From contig OX485804.1 in NCBI GenBank assembly GCA_950295325.1, positions 62,524,533-62,588,532 of the forward strand: a stretch of 64,000 nucleotides of DNA, written 5' to 3'. The position numbers were made by a program, and so were the translations under genes. This document shows positions 4,011 to 64,000 of this stretch, piece by piece (positions within the stretch are counted from its first letter, which is position 1; every line of letters starts with the position of its first letter). Below the pieces are notes generated by a model. The model worked only from the letters and a program-made list of their open reading frames with translations, was not told where the DNA came from and did not search any database. This DNA comes from Polytrichum commune (Eukaryota; Streptophyta; Polytrichopsida; Polytrichales; Polytrichaceae).

Positions 4011-6076
4011 AACTGGTAAACAACAGTGGGACCATGTGCCGCCATGTCATTTTGCCTCAATTCATAATTTCCTACACATTTAGCTACCACTGAAATTAGT
4101 GCTCTTTTCTCCAACAGCCCAACACAAAGCCCCCAATCCAGTCATGTGAGAAATTGTACCTTCCAGTAGGGGAGGTCAAAGAAAATGCTCCGTCGCTTAA
4201 CACCGTGCAATTTCACCGGGTCACCATTTGAATTCTCGGCTCCCCCATCTGCAAGAAAGTTTGATCGTGCCGTGCCCCATTGTAGAATTTCTTCCCCCGT
4301 CGGTCTGTCAGGTGCCACCTGCCACTCTTGGTGGTTATTAAATGCGGCTTTCGCCCTTCGGAACCTATGACCTGGTGCAAGAAACCGTCGCCCCCCCTAG
4401 GTAGATCATTTTGTTCAATAGCTGTGCATGCTCTGCACAAGTCTCGGGGCCACACAACGGGCATCCTTTGTATCCATGAACCTGTTGTCCTGCTAGAAGT
4501 CCATACGCAGGAAAGTCGTTCACAGTCCAAATCAACATCGCTCTAAGTGTGAAACGTCTACTCCCCTCAGGTCTTGCCATATTTATTGCTGGGACCCCAT
4601 GCCATAGTCTCAGCAAGTCACACACTATAGGAGCTAAATAAATATCTATGTTCTCGGCTGTGGGTGATTTTGGCCCAGGAATAAGTAAAGCTAGAGATAT
4701 GAAAAATTTCTTCGTGAGTAGCCACGGAGGGAGATTGTAAATTGTGATCAACAACACCCAAGTTGAGTGCTTGATTGCATTGTTCTTGTAGGGGATTATG
4801 CCATCTCCTACTAGTCCAAGCCGTAGATTTGTTGGTACTGCAGCAAACTCGGGCTCGTTTCGATCTATGGCCTTCCATTGCTCGCTGTCAGCCACTGACC
4901 TCATCAATTGGCCACGAGATCTATGAGAATCGGCCCAGGTCATGTGATTTGCTACTTGGGGGCACTTAAATAGCTGTTGCAGATGTTTGATGACATCGAA
5001 ATACCTCGCCACACGACGAGGCACATTATTTGATCATGTGATGTATCGTTGTTCATGGCATGTTGGACATTCCGTCAGGTGTTCATTGACGCCTTCGTAT
5101 AGGACATGGTCGTCGGGGCAACAGTGGACTTGATCATGTTTCAGGCCTAATTTCATGAGCAAAGATTTTACCTCATAGGCTGTTCTGGGGAACTTATTCG
5201 AGGTTGGCAAGAGGTCTCCGGCTATCCAGGTGAGCAGGGCGTCTAGGAAGGTGTGTGGGACTGAGTAAAGGGTGCACAGGGTAAATAACACTATGGCGCA
5301 TTGCAAGCGGTTCTGGGTCCCTCCTTCATAGACAGTTTCAGTGGACTCACGTATCATGTGTTCCAGGTTCGCCTCATCAAACTCTCCGTCAAATTCACCC
5401 ATGCCAGCTTCCATGCCGGTGGCTTCATCTTCGTTGCCGTTGTCGTTGTGTATCTCGTCGATTCGAGCAAACGCATCCCTGGCCATATTTTCGACGTCAA
5501 CTGCAGTCCTCATTGGCCAGGTGAAGCCTTCCTGATCAGGTCAATGTCCACGTCTTCGGTATCGCTCTTCCATACCATCTTGCACCAGGGCTGGACCGCG
5601 TACATTTTGTCCATCGACTGTCTGTAGTACACAAGTATAGATCAGTGGACTTGGAGGTCGAAATTCATTGTAAACGGTATGCAAGAACATCAGTTTGCAG
5701 AGGTATACTATACGGATATTAGGTTGAATTACCTACCATGACGGGATATATTAAATACGGATCCCGACCATGTGCACTGTGGTGCCTTGCCACGGTTTCC
5801 ACCTTCTTGATGATAGCGCCTCTGCAACGGTTACAGGCACAAGGGTACTCAGGCAGCCCCAATCTATGGGCTATTGAGCGCTCGATGTGGTAGGCTGCAG
5901 ACAACCTGCGACGCATATTGACAGCTTGTCGAATTGTCGAAGGAGACACCCACCTCAATTTCTCAGCTGCTTGTTAGATACGCATAGCGAAGCTCCTGCG
6001 ACATTGCAATCCGCATCATCGAAACGTGACTGCCACAGGTGGATGGCGTTCTTCACCAGATATTCGTCCTCCCCTA

Positions 6077-7140: not shown

Positions 7141-7151
7141 AGTCCGCGTTG
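7141..7151. repeat. Left 11-bp target site duplication of the 13.4-kb element
   Basis: AGTCCGCGTTG occurs here and again in direct orientation at 20567-20577, just outside the inverted termini. Eleven bp is within the 9-11 bp range known for Mutator-like elements. Confidence 0.75.
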
Positions 7152-7350
7152 GACGTGACTTGTATGCGAGCGATGGGCGGAGAGCGGAGAATTGGAGAGC
7201 GGAGAGCGGAAAATGGATAACACAATCCAAATATAGACTATTTATGCTAAATTTAGTTTTCTATTTTTAACATTTCAGAATATTCTGTAAATATTCAAAG
7301 AATATTTCTTTTTTGGGACAATTTTTGGACCTATAACCGTGGACCCATGG
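7152..7350 (+). repeat. Left terminal inverted repeat region of the element
   Basis: It contains GTATGCGAGCG at about 7171-7181, then GCGGAGAGCGG words to about 7210 and CCTATAACCGTGGA at about 7331. The right end (20380-20566) repeats these in inverted order. The outermost 20 bp are only weakly alike between the two ends. From 7350 to 7561 the sequence is AT-rich with nothing else recognisable. Confidence 0.7.
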
Positions 7351-7561
7351 GGTTTACAAATTGATACATTCCTATTTTTTTCCTATTATTTACAGTTGAA
7401 GTTACACTTGAATTTATGTAAGTTTAGGCAGTTTCATAATTTAATTTAATTTAATTGTTTTTGGGAAAATATAAACAAGAATTTCCAAAAAATTTAGGCA
7501 GTCTTGTAAATAATTTATTTCTAGCCTAAGCTGCTAGTAACATGCGGTAGTAGTGCATAGT

Positions 7562-10500
7562 CTACATAGTCTGAATGATAAAACCCATTTTATTGAAAAA
7601 AACAATATGAATATTGTATTGCTGACTCAGTACATGTAGTGACAAGGCCACCGTCCATTGAAAAGAATCTAGGTTGTTTGTAGGTTGCCGGCTAGTTTTA
7701 GCCAAAGGGTGAGTCAAGAGTCCGCTTTCTAGGACTAGCTTGACCTCGTTGAAACTAAAGGTAGACGCGTGAATGAAAAGGTCGGCTTCGGGATCAAGGT
7801 GGCAAACCTTCAAAAGAATGAAGTACACATGCTTGCAATAAGAGAATTGGGTCCTCCCTCTAAACTTAGTCATCGTCTTCATGAATGCAGGGCAAGTGCA
7901 ACCCACGAAAGAACTGATGGTAACCTGGTACTGTGTGATGGTAGGAGAAACACCCGAATCCAACCCGATGATGCAACCATGTCCTGGATGAGGTATCATA
8001 GTGATGGAACGGATGCAAGCTTTCAGAGAGTCGGAGGAGGCCATGGAGAGACGCTGCGCGGGATTTGGGCGAGTGGCAGTGCGCTTGACCATTTTGCCAT
8101 CTCTCTTGCCAGGGTAGCGGTCTGCTTCTGCAGGAATGGGCACCGCGCTAAGATTTTTCGGCGGCGGGGCATAAGAGAACAGTCGTCTTGGAGATACCGG
8201 CTTCTTAAGCGGGAGTTGGAATCCAGCCGCTTCAAGGGCAAGAATTTTGGTAGGCTTGAGGTTTGTGCCTAGCTTCACCGGCCAAACGTCTGGAATCGGA
8301 GGCATTTCCTGGTTTGCTGAGTGCTTAGCAACCCATTTGCGCCTTGTGCCCTTCACGCACCGGTCAATGTCATCGGAACAGAAGAAAAATTCTGTCCTCT
8401 CTGATAAATTCCTGCGTATATTAGTCCAAACTCCGGTGTAGGTAGGCGCGGCGGTCAAATTGGCGCCTCTAACAATTCTCTCAGTACATTTCTTCTTTGT
8501 GACAGCTCTCTGGGCCCAACAACACTTCGCCGAGGTCTTGGGAAGTCTTGATATGTGCCACTCCTTGACGTTAACCTTTGTCTCTTCGACAACACTGACA
8601 TGACGGATCCCCCCCTCGTTCGGCGGGGATGCAGGGATACTCTCAGGCTGAAGAATAATTTCTTGGACGTCCGCATCATCTTCTGTATCTTCGAGAATGA
8701 TGGGCATCTGCACAGGACGAGCCCTCACAGCACGTCCTGAATCTCTTGGATGTGAGAAATTTACCTTGTCAGGCCGATGAGACTCATCTTCAGCTCCAAG
8801 AGGTAGATCTGCCTTCCGCTTCGTGGACCCGAATACCTCTTCTCCAGCCATGCGAGGAACACGGGTACAAAACTCTTCAGCTCCAGGCATGTCCAACATG
8901 GGGTCTTCAAGCACTAAAGGATTACCTGTTTGCTTCGCCCTGCGCTCTGCCATCCTTAGTTTGAGCTCTTTCTTTGTAGGGCCTGTACCGCCGACGTCAC
9001 CTTTCAGGAACTGGTAGTAATTGACAACCTGTAAGAAGCCTCGAACGAAGTCGTCAACTGTAGCAACGTAGAGGTCACCGCCGCTGTTTCCAGACGCTTG
9101 AAGCCACTTGTTGTGTATTGTTTCAGCTAGATTACATGAAGGCATTTCTACTAGTTCTTCTTCTGAAAATTTCTGCGAGTACATAGTGGAAGTAGTTAGA
9201 GATTATTGAAGACTTGTTTCAGATTAGAGTACTGTGAAAAGAAGGAAAATAATATGAAATGTATTGGAAAAATATACCCTGGTCATGAAGCCTCCCCATT
9301 GGCGATAACGGTAGTGCCAGAATGCAAGCCAGAGCTCTAGTTTGTTTAGGGCCTTCTCTGTCACTGCCCCGGCGGATACCCACCATGCACATAGTCCGTG
9401 GTACATACTCTCCGCTTCGTCCATGGTCCTCGCCATCCTATACTGGTGGCACATCTTCTTGTGCTGCTCCCATAGTTCTTCGGGAATGTACTTCTCGGTA
9501 TACTTAACCATAGATTGGGTCCAGTGAAACTGACAGGTTCTCTCGCGGTCGTCCATGCGGTCCTCCTTCTTCCCGTTGCCATATATGACCCGAACTGCAT
9601 TCCAGTTGGCCTGGGCACTGTCGGCCATGAAACCCTTGAAGTTGGGCTTGACAATGCCATTTCTCTCCATGACATTATTGAGATTTTTCCAAAAAACGAT
9701 CTGGGCATCAGAGTCCTCAGATTGCATGTCACAACTTACAATGGTCATGACACGACAATATGTGGAGTCATACACGTGGCATGCCATTGTGGTCCATTGT
9801 CTTACACGTTTGACATGGTCGAACATCATCCAAGCATTCTCCAGATCTTCCCCGGGCTGCATACGCTTCACCAAGTCTACCTCACTACCAGACCCGACTT
9901 CCGACATCTTGAAGACAAAAACCTTGTCAAGATCAGCCCCTTGACTTGGGAATTTATTCTCTTGAACAAAGGCCCATAAACTGATTCCACGGAGTTTGGT
10001 GATAGAGTCCATGACACCATACCTTCTCAAGAAATGGAAGCTCATGACCTTGTTGCAGATGTTTGGGGAAGCCATGTCCTTGCATCGATCAAATACAGGA
10101 ACAAGTTCCTCTAGAGTAAGCTTCTTTGGCGGCGCGTCATCGGGTTGAAGAAGATAGTTGCCAATTAGAACTTTGCTAGCCTCCAACACCACTGCACTCT
10201 TGGTAGCCTGTGGAGTCTTCTCGATCTGTTCTTCAATTAGGCCACTAATCTCAGCCTTAGTGTCTCTGTAGTCGCCCACCTTGACTGGATGATCGTGAGA
10301 TCCTAGGTGGATACACGCTCTTGTATGGTTGATTTTGCCAACAACATAATAAATCTTAGCTCCACATGTAGTAATACATGCCGGGGGTTCTTTACATACC
10401 TTGCAAACAAGCGTGGACTCAGTTGGGGGTGTTTGATCCACTACAAAGGCTTGGAGGGTACAACCTTCAAACTCTATCTCGTTGACTTGGAAAATTCGAG

Positions 10501-11383
10501 GACGGCGGATCAGATATTCGCACGCCTTGTTGTTGCAACGCATGTGTCCAACGCAGGAGGAAGAACGGAAGGACAAACCAAAGTCGTTTGTGATGTTGGT
10601 TGTGATGGTCTTTGTCCACACATGGCCGTCGTAACGCTTGTCCATTCCTTGCATTGACTTGGCCTGGGACCGTGCGGCCGTGTGAACAGCGGGTGGTAAC
10701 TCAAATATGACGGCACCATCGAACACAACAGGAAGGTACTCTACCCTTTCGTGTCTAATCACCGAGTAGTCTATTTTTTTTAGAATATTTTTTTTTCCCG
10801 ACATTCCTGCAAGTTGTTTAAGTAATGGTAATATGCTAATAGTATCTTGCGACAAAGGATTTAAGGTAGGAGCGTTCCCACTAACTATGACCTTAGGCGG
10901 GGCCTTTGTGGGACTGCCCTCTTCATCTGAAGAAAGTGTAATTACAGACTGAAATCTAACGTTTTCTACAATTGGCGTCTCAAGACCGGGCTCGAGTTTG
11001 ACCTTCACATCACGTGGCAGAGGAGTTTGAATGGTGCACGTAGAGAAATTACGAGGAGTGAGGATCTCAGTAGACGTAGCCATCTGAGAATCAGTGAGGC
11101 CATACACACGGTAACGACCTGGATGAAGAATCCAAAACAAGTTATTGTTCTCATCTCACTGCGATACCCGACCAAGGGTGTGTGTAAGCTCTGACGTGAC
11201 AACGTCAAAAACATCCTCGTCAACAATAATAGTGTCCTCTCTAAAGCCGAACCGAAGACTCAGACGTTGTGCCGTAACGATTGCTAGACCGTCCTCTTCC
11301 ATCCGAAAGGTAAGTGGGACTCTCACCCCATCTACATAGAGGACAGCCAACCCCAACTCTCCGATAGCAGGAATATGAGCCAT
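7562..11383 (-). pseudogene. Mutator-like DDE transposase with WRKY/GCM1-type and SWIM zinc fingers
   Basis: This gene would encode the transposase that moves the element. The chosen start is the ATG at 11381-11383 (MAHIPAIGEL). Exon 1 runs to 9278 and exon 2 from 9172 to 7562; the phase-0 intron (GTATAT...CGCAG) is supported because splicing joins the catalytic residues. In order there is a Cys/His cluster (CKVCKEPPACITTCG then HLGSHDHPV, like a WRKY-GCM1 finger), a first Asp in VYDSTY, a second Asp in FMADSAQAN, the Glu in NLAETIHNKW just after the intron, and a SWIM finger (GCTCPAF ... YCKHVYFIL). About 1,240 codons in all. One in-frame TGA at 11156-11158 breaks the N-terminal part, with the same frame open on both sides. 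Everything else is open, so decay is recent, or the stop is an assembly error or is spliced around. Confidence 0.8.
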
Positions 11384-11906
11384 GATGAGGGGAATGAGCC
11401 CTTGCGCCAAGATGAAAATATGAAAGAGGATTTTCAACATTGTGGCCCATCTATTTATTAGAAATGTGCTGCCAACGAGAACAGTGATGGACACGATGCA
11501 CATGACGGATGAATTCTAAACGGAAGCGTAACTAATATTTTTAATTTTGAAAGAATCGCCCGTGAGTATGGAAATGAGGGGTAACGCTATCACGGTATAC
11601 ATAATTATAGCAATCAGGTCATGGTAGACATTCTACTTGACAAGTAATTAAATATGATTAATTTGCGCAGACTTGAAGCATGATTCATAACTACTAGGTT
11701 GAGAAATAGACTTGACGTGTTAGGATTGGAATAGATCGAATGACAAAAACCCAATTGGGCATAAAATATAAGAATGACCCTCATACTCATCTCCTTTATT
11801 TTCGTATCATAAGTTACGGGTTCTCGAGTACCGTAAGATGTGTTCAGTTGAAGGGAGGGTTTTGCTAGTGTTTGAATAGATATGCTCCGGAAAGGTGATA
11901 CATGAC
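11384..11906. promoter_or_regulatory. Divergent promoter region between the two element genes
   Basis: About 520 bp separate the start codons of the transposase (minus) and the ParB/methyltransferase-like gene (plus). A TATA-like AAAATATAAG lies at about 11763, some 145 bp before the plus-strand start. No clear TATA was fixed for the minus-strand gene. A shared bidirectional promoter is inferred from the layout only. Confidence 0.35.
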
Positions 11907-14900
11907 ATGCATGACCCTAACAAGAGGAGAAAGAAGAGAGGGAAGTTGTATTTCAGCAGCACTAAGGCATTGAAGACGAGTAGAATGGGGAGAAAAAAGG
12001 CGGCGCCAGAAAGATATGAGACAACGGGAATTAACAAAGTTTTAGATTTTGAACACAAAGAGGAGAACGCAACATTGTCGACGGTAGATGAATCTGAAGG
12101 TCCATCAATGTCCAGGGGCCCAAGGTCTCAGTCTCAAGGAGCATCAAAAGATGGGGGTACGCAGTCCAACCCCGCATCCAATCCCGCATCGGAGGAGCAC
12201 AGTGCGGATGAAGAGGTTGAAGAGACGAGGTTGATGGAACCGGAAGGTGGGTTTTTAAAACCCTCAACTTGACTATTATGGTCGTAGTGCTTAAGTCGGA
12301 AGGAGGGTTTACTAAACCCTAAAGTTGACTGTTGTGGTCGTAGTGCTTAAGCCGAAATGCTAAAAGGTGATTTTCCAAAACCCTATACCAGAATAGGTGC
12401 CGCAGAGATTCACTTGAGTTGAGAAAACGTGGGGGAGGAAAGAGGTGTAGATTGCGATGGAGGAGGTGGAGGAGGAGCAAGCCACAGGTTAGGATTTTTG
12501 GATTTAGTCGTTATGAGTGGACATTCACAAACCCTATTTGAAGTATGCTAGGTACCGACTGAGGGCATCTGAGGGCAAACTTCTATGAATTTGATGAGCG
12601 ATTTGGTTTTTTCTTCCTCCAAATTCCAGCCATTCGGGCCTTTCTTATGTGAGTTAGGTTCAGACTATACATCTGAGGGCAGGCTTCTATGAATGTGATG
12701 AGCAATTTGGTTTTTTTTTCAATCAAATTCCGCCATTCAGGCCTTTCTTATGTGAGTTAGGTTCAGACTTTAACCATAATATTTCAGGCTCGGTGCACTC
12801 AAGGAGAGGCCCCAAAGAGGTGCCGTTGCCGGCACCTTCTTTGTGGGTCCTTTTTTGTTTTCCAAAATCTGGCCATTATCCATATATGATGTATATTTGG
12901 TTCAGACTATATGCATGCAAGGCACCCTAGGTATACTTCAGGAGTGATTATGTTTTTTTTTTTTTGCAAACTCTAGCCTTTTTCAAGTATGTTAGGTTCA
13001 GACTATATGCTTGTGAGGGCAGGCTTTTATGAATTTGATGAGCAATTTGTTTTTTTTTTCCTTCAAATTCCAGCCATTCGGGCCTTTCTTATGTGAGTTA
13101 GGTTCAGAATTTAAGGATAATATTTTAGGGTAGGTGAACTCAAGGAGAGGCCCCAAAGAGGTGCCGTTGCCGGCACCCTCTTTGAGGTCCTTTTTTGTTT
13201 TCCAAAATCTGGCCATTTATCCATATATGAGGTTTGTTGGGTTCAGACTATATGCATGTGAGGCACCCTAGGTAGACTTCAGGAGTGATTTTTTTTTTTT
13301 TTGCAAACTCTGGCCATTGTCAAGTATGTTAGGTTCAGAGTATATGCATGTGAGGGGAGGCTTATATGAATTTGATGAGCAATTTGTTTTTTTTTTTCCT
13401 TCAAATTCCAGCCATTCGGGCCTTTCTTATGTGAGTTAGGTTCAGAATTTAAGGATAATATTTCAGGGTAGGTGAACTCAAGGAGAGGCCCCAAAGAGGT
13501 GCCGTTGACGGCACCCTCTTTGTGGGTCCTTTTATGTTTTCCAGAATCTGGCCATTATCCATATATGAGGTATGTTGGGTTCAAACTATATGCATGTGAG
13601 GCACCCTAGGTATACTTCAGGAGTGATTTTGTTTTTTTTTTTTGCAAAATATGGCCTTCTTCAAGTATGTTACGTTCAGACTATATGCATCTGAGGGCAG
13701 GCTTCTATGAATTTGATGAGAGATTTGGTTTTTTTTTCCTTCAAATTCCAGCCATTCGGGCCTTTCTTATGTGAGTTAGGTTCAGAATTTAAGGATAATA
13801 TTTTAGGGTAGGTGAACTCAAGGAGAGGCCCCAAAGAGGTGCCGTTGCCGGCACCCTCTTTGAGGTCCTTTTTTGTTTTCCAAAATCTGGCCATTTATCC
13901 ATATATGAGGTATGTTGGGTTCAGACTATATGCATGTGAGGCACCCTAGGTAGACTTCAGGAGTGATTTTTTTTTTTTTTTGCAAACTCTGGCCATTGTC
14001 AAGTATGTTAGGTTCAGAGTATATGCATGTGAGGGGAGGCTTATATGAATTTGATGAGCAATTTGTTTTTTTTTTCCTTCAAATTCCAGCCATTCGGGCC
14101 TTTCTTATGTGAGTTAGGTTCAGACTTTAAGCATAATATTTCAGGTTAGGTGAACTCAAGGAGAGGCCCCAAAGAGGTGCCGTTGCCGGCACCCTCTTTG
14201 AGGGTCCTGTTATTTTTCCAAAATTTGGCCATTATCCATATATGAGGTATGTTGGGTTCAGACTATATGCATGTGAGGCACCCTTGTTGAACATCAAGAG
14301 TAATTATGTTTTTTTTTTTGCAAACTCTAGCCTTTTTCAAGTATGTTAGGTTCAGACTATATGCTTGTGAGGGCAGGCTTTTATGAATTTGATGAGCATT
14401 TTGGTTTTTTTTCCCTTGAAATTCCAGCCATTCGGGCCTTTCTTATGTGAGTTAGGTTCAGACTTTAAGCATAATATATATGGGTAGGTGAACTCCAGGA
14501 GAGGCCCCAAAGAGGTGTCGCTGCCGGCACCCTCTTTGAGGGTCCTTTTATGTTTTCCAAAATCTGGCCATTATCCATATATGAGGTATGTTGGGTTTAG
14601 ACTATATGCATGTGAGGCACCCTAGTTGAACGTCAAGAGTAATTATGTTTTTTTTTTTGCAAACTCTCGCCTTTTTCAAGTTTGTTAGGTTCAGACTAGA
14701 TGCATCTGAGGGCAGGCTTATATGAATTTCATGAGTGATTTGGTTTTTTTTCCTTCAAATTCCAGCCATTCGGGCCTTTCTTATGTGAGTTAGGTTTAGA
14801 CTTTAAGCATAATATTTCAAGGTAGGTGAACTCCAGGAGAGGCCCCAAAGAGATGCCTCTGCCGGCACCCTCTTTGAGGGTCCTTTTATGTTTTCCAAAA

Positions 14901-17900
14901 TCTGGCCATTATCCATATATGAGGTATGTTGGGTTCAGACTATATGCATGTGAGGCACTCTAGGTAAACTTCAGGAGTGATTTTGTTTTTTTCTCTTGCA
15001 AACTCTGGCCTTTACCCATTTCTGAGGTATTATAGGTTTATACTTTATGAATGTGAGGCACAATAGTTGAAATGCATTGGTGCTTTGGTTTTTATTTTTG
15101 AGTTAATTCAGGCCATTCAGGCCTATGTTTGCTGAGTTACCCGCTGTGAGGAGGTTTGTTATATATAAGGACAAGTTTATATTTCATTTCTAATCTACTG
15201 ATGTTGATGACTTCTTCTTCATGCAGTCCGCCTTACGGATGCCGAGTTGAAGCTGAAACTTCACGACTTGGCGATTAAGGAGAGCGTTCCAACCGCGTCT
15301 CGCTTGGAGAAGCTAAAATGGCAACCAAAGCACAAGGATCGGCTCTTCATTCCCCTCTGCCGAATGATGCCTCTTCTTGTGGTAAGACCATTCCTCAAGA
15401 ATGACGTATCCCAACTCGTAACGCATTTTATGACTGATGGCTACATGGAGGGGAATGGTTTTTTTTATGTGGCACTTGAGGACAACCATGGGCACACTAA
15501 TGACGTGACAGCAAGTGTGGTGGCTAAGTGGTCTACGGAGTGGAAGGAGGTGAATGATGAATTCGAGAAGAAACTTCTTGCAGATGACGACTTGAAGATT
15601 TTTTTCTAATAAGATGTTCATGATTTGGGATGAGAACCATCGTCTTCAGGCATGGATGTCAATCATTGATCAGTTTCATACTCATGATATCAATTGGCAT
15701 TTCTGTGTTGAGGGTGTCATCCTTGACCCGAGGGGAGACGTAGCATCCGTGATAGCCGCTCTATACGAAGTGAATTGGTAAGATCCTCATCCTTGGTTTC
15801 TAATGATCATTTTGGTGTTCATGCAATTTTCTAATAAAATTTTTGGGTTTGCAAGAAGAATAAAAAATCTCACGTCACCACGAACCTAGTACACAAGTTA
15901 TTTCGCATCCAAAATCTTGCACCACAGCCACTGTCCTATTTTCAAGGTTTGGTATCGCCAACTATTTTGGAGGCTGCAAGGAAGAAGCAGGCTGGGAAAA
16001 ATCGCACATGGTTCACCCTCACCGTTGAAGGTCTCAATGCGGTCCTTTACTAGGTAATGTCAAGCTCAAATGTTATAGTGTCATTTAATTTATGGATAAA
16101 GAATTCATGTAACTCATTGAATTAATTGTTGGAATTATAGCATGAGCTTGCAGAAGCTGCACATGCTGCTGAAGATAAATACAAGATGAAGAATCCAGAT
16201 TCGAGCAATTGGACGGATCGTAATGCAGAGGAATGGATTAGGAAGGCTGTGAAGAAGGTTGAAGATAATCTTGTTTCGGAGCTTAGGAAACATTTGCCGG
16301 TTACGGATCCCAAACTTACTCCTTTGTTTCTGGAGGAAGTAAAGGCTCATTATGAGAAGTTCGATGAACCTGAGATGCTCTAGGAAAAACTGTATAAGCT
16401 AGCCACTTCCGCTATGCCTCCAAGGATGATGGTCAAGTGGCTCCAAAGGTGGAACTCTTCTGCAGCAATTTGGGATGCGCATCGCTTTCCCAAGGCTGGC
16501 TTCGACGACTCCAAGTTTCCGGAGTGGCTGAATCGGGCAACATGGTGGGCTCAGGTTAGTATTGTTCTTTAATTTCATGTTGTCATTTGACTGACCCCTA
16601 ATGCAACACCTAAGGAGCTATGGAAATTGTTGCAACCTATAAGACAACTACTAATTTCTTACAAATGTTTGGTGTGCATGCCCTCAGATAACAGTGGAGG
16701 CTAACGAGCTCTTCTCGGGTGTTCTCACAGACCTGGGGGAAACTATTGACTACACTCCCCATGGCGAAAGATCCTATCTTGACTATCTTCGATTACGTGG
16801 AGGCCATGAGGTGTCAGCTTTGGGAGGTTGCCTTCTTCGTTGAGTTGGGTGGAGAAAACGGCGCTCATAAGAACAACCCCCCGGAAAAACAACCTTTCTT
16901 TGTTCAAGCTATCCGCAGGGTTCTTTACAGGTACTTTAGATACGTTCTCCTGCCCATGAATGCCATCTCTAAGGTACCAGCTTTCTTCCCAAACTACCTG
17001 GATATCGAAAGTCATGATTCCATGTTCACTCCTGCAATTATAAAAGCATGGGATCCAATTCACTATCACCAGTGCGGATGGTATTTGGACTGTCCTTTGA
17101 AGAAGCCTCCTCCCTTTGACATTGCACTTAGGGATTCCATCCAGCCTCTCCTGCCTTCTCCCGCTGCTTCACTTCCAGTCTTACAATCTCCAACACCCCC
17201 GGGTGGCTCCTCCCGTAGCAAGACTGAAACTAAAGGTAGTAGGAAGGGAACCAAGAGGAAGGCTGCTGAGTTGGTTGAGGATCCAATGGATGAGGATATT
17301 CCTGCAACAGGTTGTGACATCGGTGATCCACCTGCTGAACTTGCAGACCCTCCGCGGGCACCAGCTTTTAAGTGTCTTCACCTTGGAGTTGCTAGTCAGC
17401 CCAAGTCCATCCATTTCATCCCACCTGCTGTTAAGGCGATGTCATCATCCCAAGCATTCGCCTCATCCCCTGCTACTTCTCGAGTTCTCATATTGAATGA
17501 CTCTTTCCACGGGATGTTGGATTTTAAGGCGAAGCACAACAAATTCCCTTCAACTTACGACGAGATGGTTGATTTTCTAACTGAGGTACATTTCAATCTT
17601 CATTCCTATTCAATTCAGCTACCAAGCCAATTCAAGCTTCATTCCTATTCACCAATTCATTCTCTGCTGAACGCTATGTTTTTTTTTGTTTTTGCAGGTT
17701 GGAGCATCTAGGGAATTCTTCTTCTCAGGCAAGGTGGTGCAAAAGGCTGCAGTGGACCTCATTATTGTAGAGTATCCTGATGGTTTACCTGTTCCAGGAG
17801 TTTCTGAATTCCCAGGGCAAGTTCCTCATTGGAACAAGCAGGTTCAGAACTTTGTCAAGTTCACGATTGGCTTTTGTCAAGGCTATCTTCACGACGACGG

Positions 17901-19018
17901 AGCACTGCTCTTATTCTATCCTGATAGCGTGCAAATCAAGAAGGAGGTCTTGAGCTATCTCTACAACAACAATCTGGAGGTCAAGGAGGAATGGACCATC
18001 GTGAATTCTCTCCACCTCAGTCGCCCTGTCCATAACTCTAAGCGGGTTAGTAATTTTGGCATTTTTTCCTCTCTTTAAGTTTACCCTCTTCATTACTTGA
18101 ATCAAAGTTCTAACAATTCGGGGCTTATTGTACATGTCCAAACTCTGAAGTTCAAAGCCATAGTGTTGGTTCGTTCTTTTTCCACTCCTTTGGTTAGGCA
18201 ACCGAAGGAGCTTGTCATTTCTTCGACTGATGAATTTGAAGATGTTGACCTTGCACGTGATGACGTGCTTTTCAACATTGTTACTGCTGATACTGCACTC
18301 AAGCGCAACGACGGTGACACATTTTGGAGGGGCCCAAAAGAGAAGGCAGTATCCCTGCTTCAGCTTCTTATCAGTGGCCTTAGCCCTCCAGGGGGGATTA
18401 TATGTGACCTCAGTGCTGGAACAGGTATGAGTATTTTGTTCAAATCCAACATGTTTTAATGTTTAGCCATTTCAATCACCTGCGTCTAATTCATTTCTTT
18501 GGGTTTTCGTAGGTGCCTCGGTTCTTGCTGCACAATCTACTAACAGGTCAATAGTGGCACTTGAGGGAGACAAGGAATTGTACGAAGAACTCCTTCAGCC
18601 ACTTCAGGTCATTGCGTCACAGTCTCAGGGGGTCGATCCATCCCAGTTTGTAGTGCTTGACGACGAAGATGATACCCTCCCTCAACAGGGTGCAGTTAAT
18701 CTATGTGAGTAAGTCTTTTGTCATCTTCAACTTATTTTTTGCATATGTTGCATTTCTTTTTAAGGATTCTAACAATTGTATGTTGTCATTTGTGGGTGCA
18801 GTCTGATGGTTGAAGGCCGACGTTTCGTAGACTACTGCTCCTCTCCTAATCCTAGCATGCGTCTTCCTTGTTATGCAGAGGATATGGCAGTGGCTTATGC
18901 CAATTACTCCTCCCCTAGTTCTAGTGCTTCTTCTAGTCCACGTGAGGATTACGATCCTAGAGTACTCAGATTCATAGATCAGAGTGCTTCGGAGAGTGAG
19001 GATGAGTTTATTCCCTGA
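11907..19018 (+). pseudogene. ParB-like domain plus beta-class DNA-methyltransferase-like protein, decayed
   Basis: Nine exons are inferred: 11907-12246, 15227-15777, 15856-16053, 16141-16554, 16688-17585, 17698-18045, about 18198/18208-18424, 18513-18718 and 18802-19018. Exon 1 is basic then acidic (KRRKKR, RKK), fitting a nuclear, disordered N-terminus; ATG 11985 is an alternative start. Exon 2 looks like a ParB N-terminal domain (RLFIPLCRMMPLLVVRP ... WDENHRLQAW, compare ParB DGxHRxxA). Exon 6 has VDLIIVEYPDG where N4/N6 methylases have DPPY, then GALLLFYPDS. Exons 7-8 have FWRGPKEKAVSLLQLLI, DLSAGTGASVLAA (motif I) and ALEGDKELY (motif II), the order of PF01555 beta-class enzymes. It is broken by an extra T in the T-run near 15599-15605, TAG at 16051-16053, TAG at 16381-16383, and a shift near CCCC 16757-16760. 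The DPPY site is degenerate, so methylation is unlikely. The domain calls are by eye. Confidence 0.65.
12540..15010. repeat. 338-bp tandem array in intron 1 of the ParB/methyltransferase-like gene
   Basis: A marker word (TATGAATTTGATGAGCAATT or close variants) recurs near 12585, 12690, 13030, 13368, 13708, 14047, 14382 and 14722. That gives a unit of about 335-340 bp, about seven copies, the first one truncated to 105 bp. Each full unit holds a T-run, CAAATTCCAGCCATTC, and a hairpin GGTGCCGTTGCCGGCACC (some copies changed). Open frames in the array are repeats of the same 70-codon shadow and are not genes. The intron it fills is 2,980 bp. Confidence 0.9.
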
Positions 19019-19249
19019 GTTTGATTTTGTATTGGATTTGTATTCCCGGAATCCTTTGTATTTGAATCTTGTAGTGTATAGATGTTGACACATGATCATT
19101 AAATACAACCCAAAACAATTTCTACAAACACAACATTGAATAGAATCATACTATACAACTGAAATTGTAGAGGTGAAATCGGTAAAGTACACTGCCAATG
19201 TTTGCTAATCCAGGTGGTAACTTAGATATCTGCACATTGGTCATATGGC

Positions 19250-19650
19250 TGAATTTGTGTTTGTTTGGGTAGGCTATGTGTTTAATTTGATTTTTGGGCT
19301 TATGATTTAGTGGCCCTTAGGCAGGTTAAGGTGGCAGATTATACATGAAGGGCAACCTGGAATGGGGTGCCATTGCAGGCACCCCCCTGCAATGATTTTT
19401 TTCATTGAGTTTATTGGTCAAAAGGCAAAATCCTTGTTTGTTTGGGTAGGCTAAGTGTTTATTTTGATTTCTGGGGGGTTAGTTTAGTGACCCTTTGGCA
19501 ACTTAGGATGGCAAAATATACATGAATGGCAACCTCTAAGGGGGTGCCGTTGCAGGCACTCCCTTGGAATGATTTTTTTTGAATTCAGTTTATTGGTCAT
19601 AAGGTTGTATTTGTGTTTGTTTGGGTAGGCTAGGTGTTTAGTTTTATTTC
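19250..19650. repeat. 182-bp tandem repeat, about 2.2 copies, with the same hairpin
   Basis: Units start at TTTGTTTGGGTAGGCTA near 19257, 19437 and 19617. Each full unit contains GGGGTGCC(A/G)TTGCAGGCAC, a hairpin like that of the array in intron 1 although the rest of the unit differs. It lies just behind the stop codon of the ParB/methyltransferase-like gene. Confidence 0.75.
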
Positions 19651-19744
19651 CAGACTCGTAGGAGAATATGTGCCACTTGTGGGCATTCGCGAATGGGATT
19701 TATCATCTGTCTAACCCCCTCCAAAAACAAGTCCGATACTTGAC

Positions 19745-20172
19745 AATAGATCTTTCTAAATCTTATAATGTTAACCCTCATGAATGAATCAAAGTTAACA
19801 TTTATAAAATTAGTATTTTGAGCAATATACAAATCTTAACATTGATAAATATGAGCAATTGTGAAGAGTCATTGTGATAGAATATCATTCACAATATTGC
19901 AAACTCAATCATAACTTTGTTCAATATCAAGTTTTCAAATCACGGGCTAGAGAGAGAGGAATGTAATTGGATGTGTAGTAATTATCATCCATATTGTGGT
20001 TGTTTTTCATTCGTTAACATTTATATAGTCAAATTTACAAAGAAGGGAGTACCATTTTGTTATCAGTTAACACGTTTAACAGTTATACTGTGCAATATAT
20101 GGGGTGTAGAAGAAAGTTAACATTTAGAAAGGGTGAACACTTATAGTTGTAACACTTATAGAGGGTGTACTG
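19745..20172. mobile_element. MITE-like copy related to the one at 3355, inverted
   Basis: The reverse complement of 3410-3660 aligns along this stretch: GTTAACCCTC, GAGCAATATACAAATCT, TTCAATATCAAGTTT and AAATCACGGG recur in order. The right end (CACTTATAGAGGGTGTACTG followed by TA) matches the MITE terminus; the left end is diverged, so the boundary is approximate. It is longer than the first copy (about 430 bp) and is nested in the 13.4-kb element. Confidence 0.6.
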
Positions 20173-20379
20173 TATGTGGAGAAATTTTATTAAGAGACCT
20201 CCTTCGTGTTTACTTCAAATAGTACATGTTTTTAATTTACAATAATATGTACTATAGTACACGTGTTTGGATATTGAATTGGTGACGTCATACTGATGTA
20301 AGCCCTAATGTTGTATTTTATTAAAATATTTATATGTTTCATAAATCTATAAATGTTATGAATGGGGAAATGTAAACCC

Positions 20380-20566
20380 TATTTCCACGGTAATAGACTA
20401 CCTAACCCTTAAAAGTTTCTAAAAATAGTTAGATGTTTTTCATTCATTCCCGCGGTTATAGGTGCATTTTTCCTCTCATTTCATGTCTCACATCGAGTTC
20501 TCCGCTCTCCGCTCTTTGCTCTCCGCTCTCTGCTCACCGCTCTCCGCTCGCATACTAACTTTCCCC
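20380..20566 (-). repeat. Right terminal inverted repeat region of the element
   Basis: In plus orientation it shows TTCCACGGTAATAG, CCGCGGTTATAGG (about 20450), CCGCTCTCCGCTC words (20500-20549), CGCTCGCATAC (20544-20554) and the end TTTCCCC. Read in reverse it starts GGGGAAAGTTAG, very like the terminus at 62784 (GGGGAGTGCTATC). Confidence 0.7.
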
Positions 20567-20577
20567 AGTCCGCGTTG
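20567..20577. repeat. Right 11-bp target site duplication
   Basis: AGTCCGCGTTG, identical to 7141-7151. Joining the flanks with one copy removed gives a continuous plus-strand frame across the site that reads HKSALWATEDIAIKKLP and on to a TAG at 20650, which hints that the element landed in an exon. Confidence 0.75.
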
Positions 20578-62994: not shown

Positions 62995-63971
62995 TTATTC
63001 ATCAGTAGTAGCACTAGACATGAAACTATCTTTTGCCTCGTCATCTATATATATTCGAGCACCTTTGCATTGCGAATTGATTTTGGAACTATAGCAAGAT
63101 TCTTCATTTGGATCCAAATCTTCGAGATTCAACATTGCAATTGCAACATTCTCGGCATATGATGGGAGACGCGGGCTACGGCTTGGACTTCGTAGGAATT
63201 GTCTATGTGCCCAAAACGGGAGACATGTCCTCTTTCCAATCGTATTCCTGAAATCAAATCGATGAAACATGTAAATAATGTGAAGAAATAAAAATGAACC
63301 AATGAATTGAATGAAACGAATGAATTGAATAAAAATTTATTGTATTAAAACTTACTCACACTCAAATTCAAGCATCTCCTCATCGGAGAGGTTATCATCT
63401 TCTTTTGTGAGATCTTGTATATTCTCCTTAGATGACCCCTCTTTCAAAACGTTTTCCAAAAGCGGTTTCAATATGTGCTCAAACATGTCATTATCACCCT
63501 CAAATGCAAGAAGATGTCTGCCACATGCGCGTGTTGCTAGGATAGAAGCTCCAGTGGAACATGTCAAATCAACAACGCGTCCATTCGATGGTGTAAACAA
63601 TTCAATAAGATCTTGAAAAAAACGCGGCGATTTTTGATATGGCCCCCTCCAAGGTCTTCCCGATTTTTGAAGAAGCATGTTTTTTTCATCCACAAAATTG
63701 AAAAGCAAGTTTTTGCTTTTCAATCCAGTGCCAAAAAAAGTGGAGTTTGGTTGTCTCGTGGATTTTGTGATAGTAAAATCCCTTACCAAGACATGAGCCA
63801 TAAATGCCGGAGTCTACAAAAAAATATAAATTGTGTTAAAACTATATACAATGCAAATAACACCAAAATAATTAAATAGAAACAATTGTGATATGTTATA
63901 CTTACGGTGTAGGTTGGAGACTCCGGATCCTTGAACACCATGTACGAATTGAATTGAGGCAAATAAAAGTC
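62995..63971 (-). CDS. Diverged second copy of the ParB/methyltransferase-like gene, last three exons
   Basis: Three exons on the minus strand are intact: 63906-63971 (YLPQFNSYMVF), 63356-63823 and 62995-63247; the 5' part lies beyond the window. The middle exon has RGPYQKSPRFFQDLIEL, VVDLTCSTGASILAT and AFEGDNDMFEHILKPLL, parallel to the first copy's RGPKEKAVSLLQLLI, DLSAGTGASVLAA and ALEGDKELYEELLQPL. This is the C-terminal, SAM-binding side of a beta-class (PF01555-like) DNA methylase fold: motif X helix, motif I, motif II. The final exon has SPRLPSYAENVAIAMLN, matching SMRLPCYAEDMAVAYAN. The last intron has the same position and phase as in the first copy (donor GA|GTAAG). No stops or shifts are seen here, unlike the first copy, so this copy may still be functional as a protein. 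The catalytic DPPY position is not in the window. Confidence 0.65.
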
Positions 63972-64000
63972 CTAAGAACTTTCATGTTGCCGTTGTGTAA

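Follow-up and report, generated by a model that had tools for sequence, protein, structure and literature searches.

What does a DNA-methylase-like gene do inside a plant transposon? The question is raised by a 64,000-nucleotide stretch of the Polytrichum commune genome (assembly GCA_950295325.1, contig OX485804.1, positions 62,524,533 to 62,588,532; hereafter the window), in which the initial annotation described a complete Mutator-like element with a ParB/DNA-methylase-like gene as its cargo. That observation, taken as a whole, is confirmed as real, and its interpretation is supported in part. The window holds one decayed copy in a large group of DNA transposons of this plant genome that produce 10-bp duplications, and every sampled lineage with readable DNA combines a Mutator-like transposase with a divergent, fast-evolving accessory gene that includes a methylase-derived domain. 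Arrays of perfect palindromes, differing by lineage, lie between the two genes, and the comparisons below suggest that the palindrome type follows the accessory gene rather than the transposase. The accessory protein may be a self-targeting anti-silencing factor of the element, comparable to the VANC proteins of VANDAL transposons.

The transposon spans positions 7151-20566 of the window and comprises a 10-bp target site duplication, imperfect inverted ends, the transposase, and the divergent multi-exon gene. The borders are as follows.

7141 to 7150, no strand: left copy of the target site duplication, AGTCCGCGTT (10 bp), placed by flank comparison
20567 to 20576, no strand: right copy of the target site duplication, placed by flank comparison
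7151 to 7215, plus strand: transposase-side end, GGACGTGACTTGTATGCGAGCG followed by GCGGAGA-type subterminal repeats
20495 to 20566, minus strand: accessory-gene-side end, GGGGAAAGTTAGTATGCGAGCG followed by GCGGAGA-type repeats, in minus-strand reading

The 11-bp string AGTCCGCGTTG occurs twice in the window (7141-7151 and 20567-20577), with no occurrence on the opposite strand, and had been read as an 11-bp duplication. Genome-wide, the end motif is found at 89 exact places and at 643 places with at most three mismatches (control, 0 for each), and this recurrence of the ends at hundreds of places rules out a plain chance repeat. For flank comparison, 22 candidate pairs of ends were chosen by eye among the end-motif matches listed, of which 20 were retrieved (C1:21352 and C1:62614 were not included); together with the window copy and two copies retrieved whole, they form a sample of 23, in which the termini were placed 11 bases outside GTATG. 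The 10-bp flanks are identical at all ten positions in 14 of the 23 copies and at nine positions in a further three (17/23 in total), and agree at four positions or fewer in six; shifting by one base brings one of these six (C3:1589) into agreement. As a control, 506 mismatched flank pairs were compared, and the highest agreement among them was 7/10. Since 10-bp duplications recur across the family, the element is placed at 7151-20566, and the additional base that matches in the window is attributed to chance; the direct repeat is therefore real, but an 11-bp duplication is ruled out. The inverted ends claimed earlier are likewise present, though imperfect (GGACGTGACTTGTATGCGAGCG versus GGGGAAAGTTAGTATGCGAGCG).

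Two further loci illustrate the behavior of the family. A 1.1-kb deletion copy at C7:11331193-11332375 (L029) retains both ends and a perfect 10-bp duplication, which suggests that the family mobilizes miniatures. At C1:20217145-20268334 (L030-L033), two adjacent copies have left flanks that match, as compared by eye, in inverted orientation, as if an inversion between the two copies had exchanged them.

Does the accessory gene belong to the element? In the window, a multi-exon gene extends on the plus strand over about 11907-19018, divergent from the transposase frames at 7562-9202 and 9224-11155, in agreement with the arrangement proposed in the initial annotation. This copy is decayed: the transposase is interrupted by a stop at 11156-11158 and the accessory gene by a stop at 16381-16383 and by frame breaks near 15605 and 16765. 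The term complete thus applies to the structure of the element but not to its coding capacity; open frames for the transposase and for the accessory exons occur in other genomic copies. Both genes are present in the retrieved DNA of six lineages (the window, C7:36943, C2:6456, C3:13620, C1:28014, and C2:51227). The candidate view that related transposases such as that of C2:6456 lack the accessory gene was rejected, as the retrieved copy does carry the gene, in a diverged form (about 31-36% identity to the C7:36943 gene). For 27 of the best 69 of 2,337 candidates scored in the transposase search, a match to the methylase exon lies no farther than 25 kb away. All 27 are accompanied by a divergent match, and two by a non-divergent one as well. 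The linkage was also followed in the C1:28014 family, the youngest sampled, whose transposase has 766 amino acids and reaches up to 99% identity between copies. Among its transposases of at least 96% identity, 31 of 34 have a ParB-like exon within 25 kb, in all cases divergent. In the family as a whole (59 of 61 rows, two second-piece rows being omitted), such an exon lies within 25 kb in 47/59 and within 15 kb in 42/59, against a random mean of 0.15 at 15 kb. The ends and both genes therefore travel together with independent duplications as one mobile family, and the situation named in advance as refuting the element, a transposase and a methylase-like gene that never share termini, did not occur.

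What does the accessory gene encode? Its exons were delimited and joined by eye in all copies, from sequence alone, and in the window the gene is read as follows.

11907 to 12246, plus strand: inferred first exon (donor at 12247), delimited by eye; a similar reading is obtained in copy C7:36943
15227 to 15778, plus strand: exon with the ParB-like region, reading DENHR here, with a frame break near 15605
16141 to 17588, plus strand: central region with exons, with the stop at 16381-16383 and the frame break near 16765
17698 to 18045, plus strand: methylase-domain exon, in which motif IV is EYPD where CcrM has DPPY
18135 to 18424, plus strand: methylase exon with motif X (WRGPKEK) and the first half of motif I (DLSAGTG)
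18513 to 18706, plus strand: methylase exon in which motif I continues (ASVLAAQ...IVALEGDKE)
18803 to 19018, plus strand: inferred last exon

The central part (16767-17588) has 144 genome-wide matches, and for the motif-IV exon (17698-18045) the best 150 of 1,055 candidate matches were scored. A profile of the methylase domain was built from six aligned copies with exons joined by eye, among which the window and C7 are near relatives. Against the PDB, this profile matches DpnA (E=1.6e-8, positions 180-237) and CcrM (E=5.4e-7, positions 15-236 of 247). PF01555 is listed for 6/6 exon-joined members (best E=1.2e-6), single accessory exons reaching just E=0.06-0.11, and phrog_3008 is listed for 6/6 methylase-domain members; methylase is the sole pointer returned by the Pfam search of the accessory protein. 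By these profile matches, the accessory protein contains a beta-class N6/N4 DNA-methylase domain. The cargo had been called ParB/DNA-methylase-like, and its methylase part is borne out by CcrM, DpnA, and PF01555, but support for the ParB part does not extend beyond a short motif.

The domain is altered at its predicted catalytic site. Motif X, motif I, and the subsequent acidic residue are retained in the accessory proteins, and motif IV reads [DE][YIL]P[DE] in 22 of 23 exons (EYPD, DYPD, DIPE, or DLPE) and EYLD in the remaining one, the alignment having been made without L084, which contains a stop. The catalytic (D/N/S)PP(Y/F/W) motif of PF01555 methylases is absent from all 23. Ratios of nonsynonymous to synonymous substitution rates (dN/dS, Nei-Gojobori) have a median of 0.11 for the ParB-like exon (39/210 pairs) and 0.10 for the motif-IV exon (42/253 pairs), with pairs restricted to dS of 0.1-1.5 and copies selected to be free of stops, which perhaps lowers the values somewhat. 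Values of about 0.1 argue that the altered motif IV is maintained by selection and is not a product of decay. For comparison, motif IV of prokaryotic ParB-methylases reads DPPY in L097 and, among its four phage relatives, DPPY in L102 and L103, DFPY in L100, and DPIY in L101. Prokaryotic enzymes thus also differ among themselves at the two middle positions, and it is the last letter that distinguishes the transposon proteins: it is Y in 5/5 phage or bacterial ParB-methylases and D or E in 23/23 transposon exons. The final aromatic residue of motif IV matters for catalysis, and its loss therefore argues for binding or altered chemistry over ordinary base methylation.

The same residue bears on a rival explanation, active self-marking, in which the accessory protein still methylates the palindromes, producing N6-methyladenine (6mA) or N4-methylcytosine (4mC), and the mark protects or activates the element. 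The kept motif I, motif X, and acidic position, the strong purifying selection on the domain, the DNA adenine methylases as the closest PDB matches, and the lack of rigidity of motif IV in phages and bacteria are all consistent with it, and binding together with epigenetic modification of the own transposon has been proposed for a ParB-methylase gene of Ectocarpus (PMC12477816). With the final Y kept in every prokaryotic enzyme compared and replaced by an acidic residue in every transposon exon, we consider this explanation unlikely.

Two observations concern methylase-like sequences elsewhere. L097 lies on contig C12:29034-29273 of the same assembly and is a true ParB-methylase, with PF02195, PF01555, and DPPY, while the small contig C23:8829-9982 (L098, L099) carries bacterial or phage-like ParB genes; both contigs are probably contaminant or symbiont DNA of bacterial or phage-like origin. 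At the right edge of the window, which truncates it, a second, different methylase-like accessory piece (63450-64000, minus strand; WRGPYQKS...VVDLTCSTGASILATRACGRHLLAFEGDNDMFE) has the same motif X/motif I pattern and is matched by the C7 methylase exons (E=2e-8).

The second conserved block of the accessory protein reads IPLCR...LVRP...(D/E)GNHR..AW and has a motif-level likeness to ParB/Srx proteins, a superfamily with a G-x-(H/R)-R motif. GNHR is found in 19 of 21 ParB-like exons, the others being GNHC in C2:6456 and GNHH in L048; the window and m41 copies have DENHR in place of (D/E)GNHR. In Pfam, PF02195 (ParB_N) was matched by none of four accessory exons at E up to 10, hhalign gave zero matches between the 21 ParB-like exons and ten phage or bacterial ParB domains, and searches with the ParB-like exon found no match in the PDB and a best E of 3 among phages. 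In PHROGs, the top hint is phrog_1033 'ParB-like' (E=0.32). Because the profile tests failed and the short motif stands alone, the block is termed ParB-like and is not filed as ParB.

What, then, could such a protein recognize? Arrays of perfect palindromes are found between the transposase and the methylase exons in 11 of 13 stretches, mostly in inferred introns of the accessory gene. Arrays are absent from two stretches, mid (C3:13620) and mid2 (C5:17569500), which were assigned to the C3:13620 type. Both include about 5 kb of N, for which reason they were left out of later palindrome tests, and mid2 in addition shows no gene match. In the window, two features of this kind are found.

12820 to 14192, no strand: repeat array within the inferred first intron, unit length about 340 bp, carrying candidate binding sites
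19367 to 19559, no strand: two imperfect palindromes, GTGCCATTGCAGGCAC and GTGCCGTTGCAGGCAC, 3' of the accessory gene

The array contains five perfect sites, GTGCCGTTG(C/A)CGGCAC, at 12820, 13161, 13499, 13839, and 14177. Across the 11 stretches, nine palindrome types are distinguished.

Window: GGTGCCGTTGCCGGCACC
C7:36943: GGTGCCGTTAACGGCACC
C2:6456: CTGTCGGATCCGACAG
C1:28014, P87, and P82: (GAGG)CCTCGGATCCGAGG(CCTC)
C2:51227: GTGTCTCGGTCCCGAGACAC
P66a: CCTCTCGATTCCGAGAGG
P66b: GACCCTCTCGGAACCGAGAGGGTC
m41: GGGTATTGGCGGCACCGCCAATACCC
P60: AATCCCACGGATCCGTGGGATT

Each stretch holds 4-30 palindromes, and in C7:36943 they reach into a second intron. Within an array, the palindromes are 0.89-1.00 identical and their flanks 0.58-0.93. 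Genome-wide, the window/C7 type GTGCCGTTNNCGGCAC has 969 forward and 302 reverse matches and the C1 type occurs at 1,903 places, with 0 in the control for either; the matches listed for the window/C7 type lie in five loci, each with the accessory gene within about 11 kb. Furthermore, among the sites tested in eight stretches, only two have arms whose symmetry stops at the short core. Motif arrays in noncoding tandem repeats that differ by lineage, as known in VANDAL elements, are thus found in 11/13 stretches with nine types. Subterminal repeats of the GAGCGGAG type were also considered as the site of the accessory protein and rejected, since the C2:51227 and C3:13620 stretches first retrieved carry the gene without them (the ends there were not located).

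It is very unlikely, in our assessment, that tandem-repeat dynamics, such as those of hairpin-prone satellites, produced the palindromes as a by-product while the accessory gene acts elsewhere. Tandem arrays do homogenize and can spread any motif. In C1:28014, however, 30 of 32 sites are perfect though the 60-bp flanks have drifted to about 60% identity (58-66%); the same palindrome recurs in arrays of unlike unit length (window, about 340 bp; C7, mostly 203-238 bp); and arrays occur in all 11 readable stretches, whereas no palindrome core occurs more than once in any of seven control pieces, 10 kb each and overlapping, taken from the rest of the window.

Does the palindrome follow the accessory gene or the transposase? 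Between the window and C7, the transposases are 87% and the ParB-like exons 86% identical, and the palindromes are nearly the same. C2:6456 compared with either has transposases of 85-90% identity, ParB-like exons of 35%, and a different palindrome. C1:28014 shares its palindrome core with P82 (transposases 87%, ParB-like exons 82%) and differs in palindrome from P66a, in which the transposases are again 87% identical and the ParB-like exons 66%. The transposase was rejected as the palindrome reader, as 85-90% identical transposases pair with different palindromes. In Mantel tests (n=11), palindrome type correlates with the accessory gene at r=0.71 (p=0.0002) and with the transposase at r=0.26 (p=0.057), the partial correlations being 0.69 and -0.11. 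The second runs were made without P87 and P66b, whose transposases are partial, except for P66b in an alternative set. With full transposases (n=9), the values are r=0.65 (p=0.0004) for the accessory gene and r=0.38 (p=0.021) for the transposase; in the alternative set, an alternative to the one with a single lineage per cluster (n=7), they are r=0.49 (p=0.027) and r=-0.14. These data suggest that palindrome type follows the accessory gene rather than the transposase, although the correlation is not significant with near-duplicates reduced to one lineage per cluster, a point that also favors the by-product explanation. The accessory gene at C2:6456300-6474500 (L003, L004) is about 35% identical to those of the window and C7 and slightly nearest to the C2:51227 lineage, and this locus looks like a joint exchange of accessory gene and palindrome on a window-type transposase.

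In the mechanism proposed here, the accessory protein would be the element's own sequence-specific factor and would bind the lineage-specific palindromes arrayed in the introns and spacers of the element, probably as a dimer, as suggested by the palindromic form of the sites. Its remodeled S-adenosylmethionine (SAM)-methylase fold would keep the element's own copies transcribable, as VANC does for VANDAL elements. By analogy with that system, we give about an even chance to the view that the accessory protein is a self-targeting, VANC-like factor that serves anti-silencing rather than ordinary base methylation. The initial annotation had suggested a VANDAL-type logic; this is supported, and the palindrome arrays strengthen it. 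A broader claim, put forward tentatively and judged to fall a little short of even chances, is that VANC-type self-recognition evolved separately a second time in land-plant DNA transposons: a methylase fold of prokaryotic derivation, with its catalytic motif rebuilt and selectively maintained, would read the palindromes of the element, the gene and palindrome would swap or drift as a pair, and private anti-silencing codes would let lineages coexist.

A simpler role has also to be weighed, in which palindrome binding controls the protein's own divergent promoter or assists transposition (replication, copy number), with no epigenetic function. The position of the arrays between divergent genes and in introns fits such an autoregulator or helper, and a helper too would be selected and would travel with the transposase. 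Nevertheless, 4-30 palindromes per stretch, reaching into a second intron in C7:36943, exceed the needs of an operator, and the 1.1-kb deleted copy, with its perfect 10-bp duplication, has none of five tested palindrome types; from this one copy, mobility is apparently independent of palindromes in cis. This role appears somewhat unlikely.

Several points weigh against an anti-silencing factor that reads palindromes. The member shown scores 25.7 bits against PF01555, slightly below the curated threshold of 26.7; a Pfam search of the accessory exons found no DNA-binding domain, and the ParB identity of the accessory block is unconfirmed by the profile comparisons. An altered catalytic motif does not prove that methylation activity is lost. 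The palindrome identities measured within arrays are inflated, because sites were picked with at most two mismatches. Without C2:6456 (n=8), the transposase correlates with palindrome type too (r=0.53, p=0.004), beside r=0.70 (p=0.001) for the accessory gene, the partial correlations being -0.13 and 0.54, respectively; with one lineage per cluster (n=7), the values are r=0.30 (p=0.12) for the accessory gene and r=0.17 (p=0.25) for the transposase. As to linkage, 25 of 55 methylase exons at least 80% identical to that of the window, and only 2/41 and 2/54 of more distant ones, have a listed transposase within 25 kb, that is, one among the best 69 of 2,337.

How far is the system already known? 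VANC is a protein that recognizes a short motif located in tandemly repeated noncoding sequence, with introns of the VANC gene among it, and that causes methylation loss; related VANCs and their motifs evolve together, and the motifs vary between related transposable elements (PMC5735166). The Polytrichum element resembles VANDAL in being an autonomous transposon with a fast-evolving accessory gene and lineage-varying motifs in noncoding tandem repeats, including introns, and differs in its long perfect palindromes, its methylase-derived protein, and its 10-bp duplication. The likeness is one of anatomy: binding and methylation loss have been shown for VANC (PMC5735166), and for the Polytrichum element they would follow by analogy. 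A comparable gene is described for Sola1-1_Ec32 in Ectocarpus, in which transposase and accessory gene occupy opposite strands and the latter encodes ParB-like and DNA N4/N6-methyltransferase regions; similar proteins are stated to occur in green and red algal transposons (PMC12477816). Compared by description, the two share the opposite strand and both regions, and Sola1-1_Ec32 is set apart by its Sola transposase superfamily and brown-alga host; its description, in the excerpt available, is silent on palindrome arrays and on any change in motif IV (PMC12477816). DNA transposons of fungi that bear TET/JBP likewise carry an accessory gene for a DNA-modification enzyme, but it is a dioxygenase, with other transposases and other hosts (PMC12730594). 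ParB-methylase genes have been treated for prokaryotic elements (PMC5512222). Phage and bacterial ParB-methylases (L097, L100-L103) have the same order of a ParB or ParB-like region followed by a beta-class methylase, with motif IV before motif I; L097 matches both PF02195 and PF01555, whereas PF02195 is not matched by the plant transposon proteins, whose motif IV ends in D or E. In the open-access literature searched, neither a land-plant transposon with a ParB-like plus methylase accessory gene nor a description of the altered motif IV came up, and palindrome arrays had no precedent beyond VANC. A ParB-methylase accessory gene has been published for a brown-alga transposon, and the palindrome arrays, differing by lineage, are new here.

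If the anti-silencing reading is true, self-targeting factors against silencing arose at least twice in plant transposons, from proteins unrelated to one another, and sequence alone would reveal the arms race, each lineage showing both protein and sites. The recurrence of methylase-derived genes in eukaryotic transposons would also become easier to understand, though ordinary 6mA/4mC methylation may not be their job, and DNA-binding modules with sequence specificity would become available that might serve epigenome editing. The nine palindrome types with their proteins, all from one genome, are a ready set for studying the evolution of specificity.

To which superfamily does the transposase belong? 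Its reading frames in the window are as follows.

9224 to 11155, minus strand: main frame, 643 amino acids here, with YDSTY, MADS..ANWN, and C-x-FH motifs
11156 to 11515, minus strand: 5' part of the frame, separated in the window copy by the in-frame stop at 11156-11158
7562 to 9202, minus strand: second frame, toward the end of which lies a SWIM-like motif, CxC..CxH (SWIM E=0.042)

In other copies, the main frame is a single open frame of 762-790 amino acids. The YDSTY-type, MADS..ANWN, and C-x-FH series was aligned by eye in nine transposases, with one exception reading MANN. The transposases of Mutator-like elements (MULEs) have a DDE domain with a C-x(2)-H-type signature and a SWIM finger. 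Target site duplications of MULEs measure 8-11 bp (PMC6446971), and the 10 bp found here lie within this range. The transposase is Mutator-like in duplication length and, as far as the motifs aligned by eye suggest, in its signature. By contrast, the PF10551 (MULE) profile was matched neither by the window transposase (E up to 1) nor by a 766-amino-acid open-frame relative (E up to 10), no Pfam transposase family was matched by either, and hhalign of nine transposases with five PF10551 proteins of the same genome gave a top probability of 1.5%. A PDB search with the transposase found no match, and viral contigs searched for relatives of the transposase or the ParB-like exon contained none. Since both the PF10551 match and the profile-profile alignment with MULE proteins are lacking, the transposase is not filed as MULE, though it resembles one in the features that are visible, and the Mutator-like membership claimed earlier is not supported in the form given. 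Similarly, the DDE/SWIM transposase of the initial annotation is present as transposase frames, but the SWIM finger is a weak Pfam match (E=0.042), under the curated cut-off.

A similar CxxC-bearing open frame of about 160 amino acids lies between the transposase and the accessory gene in two lineages whose transposases are about 56% identical (L001:4699-5178, minus strand; L064:8773-9000 continuing into L007:1-261, minus strand), and is perhaps a nested repeat or a third gene. To the left of the element, the window carries a Transposase_21 (tnp2) fragment (4365-5033, minus strand; E=4.5e-51). Matches to chlorophyll a/b-binding proteins number 58 and mark the host as a photosynthetic plant. 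Many short matches of this kind (profile positions 31-161) are found genome-wide, as an expanded family, perhaps ELIP-like, might give.

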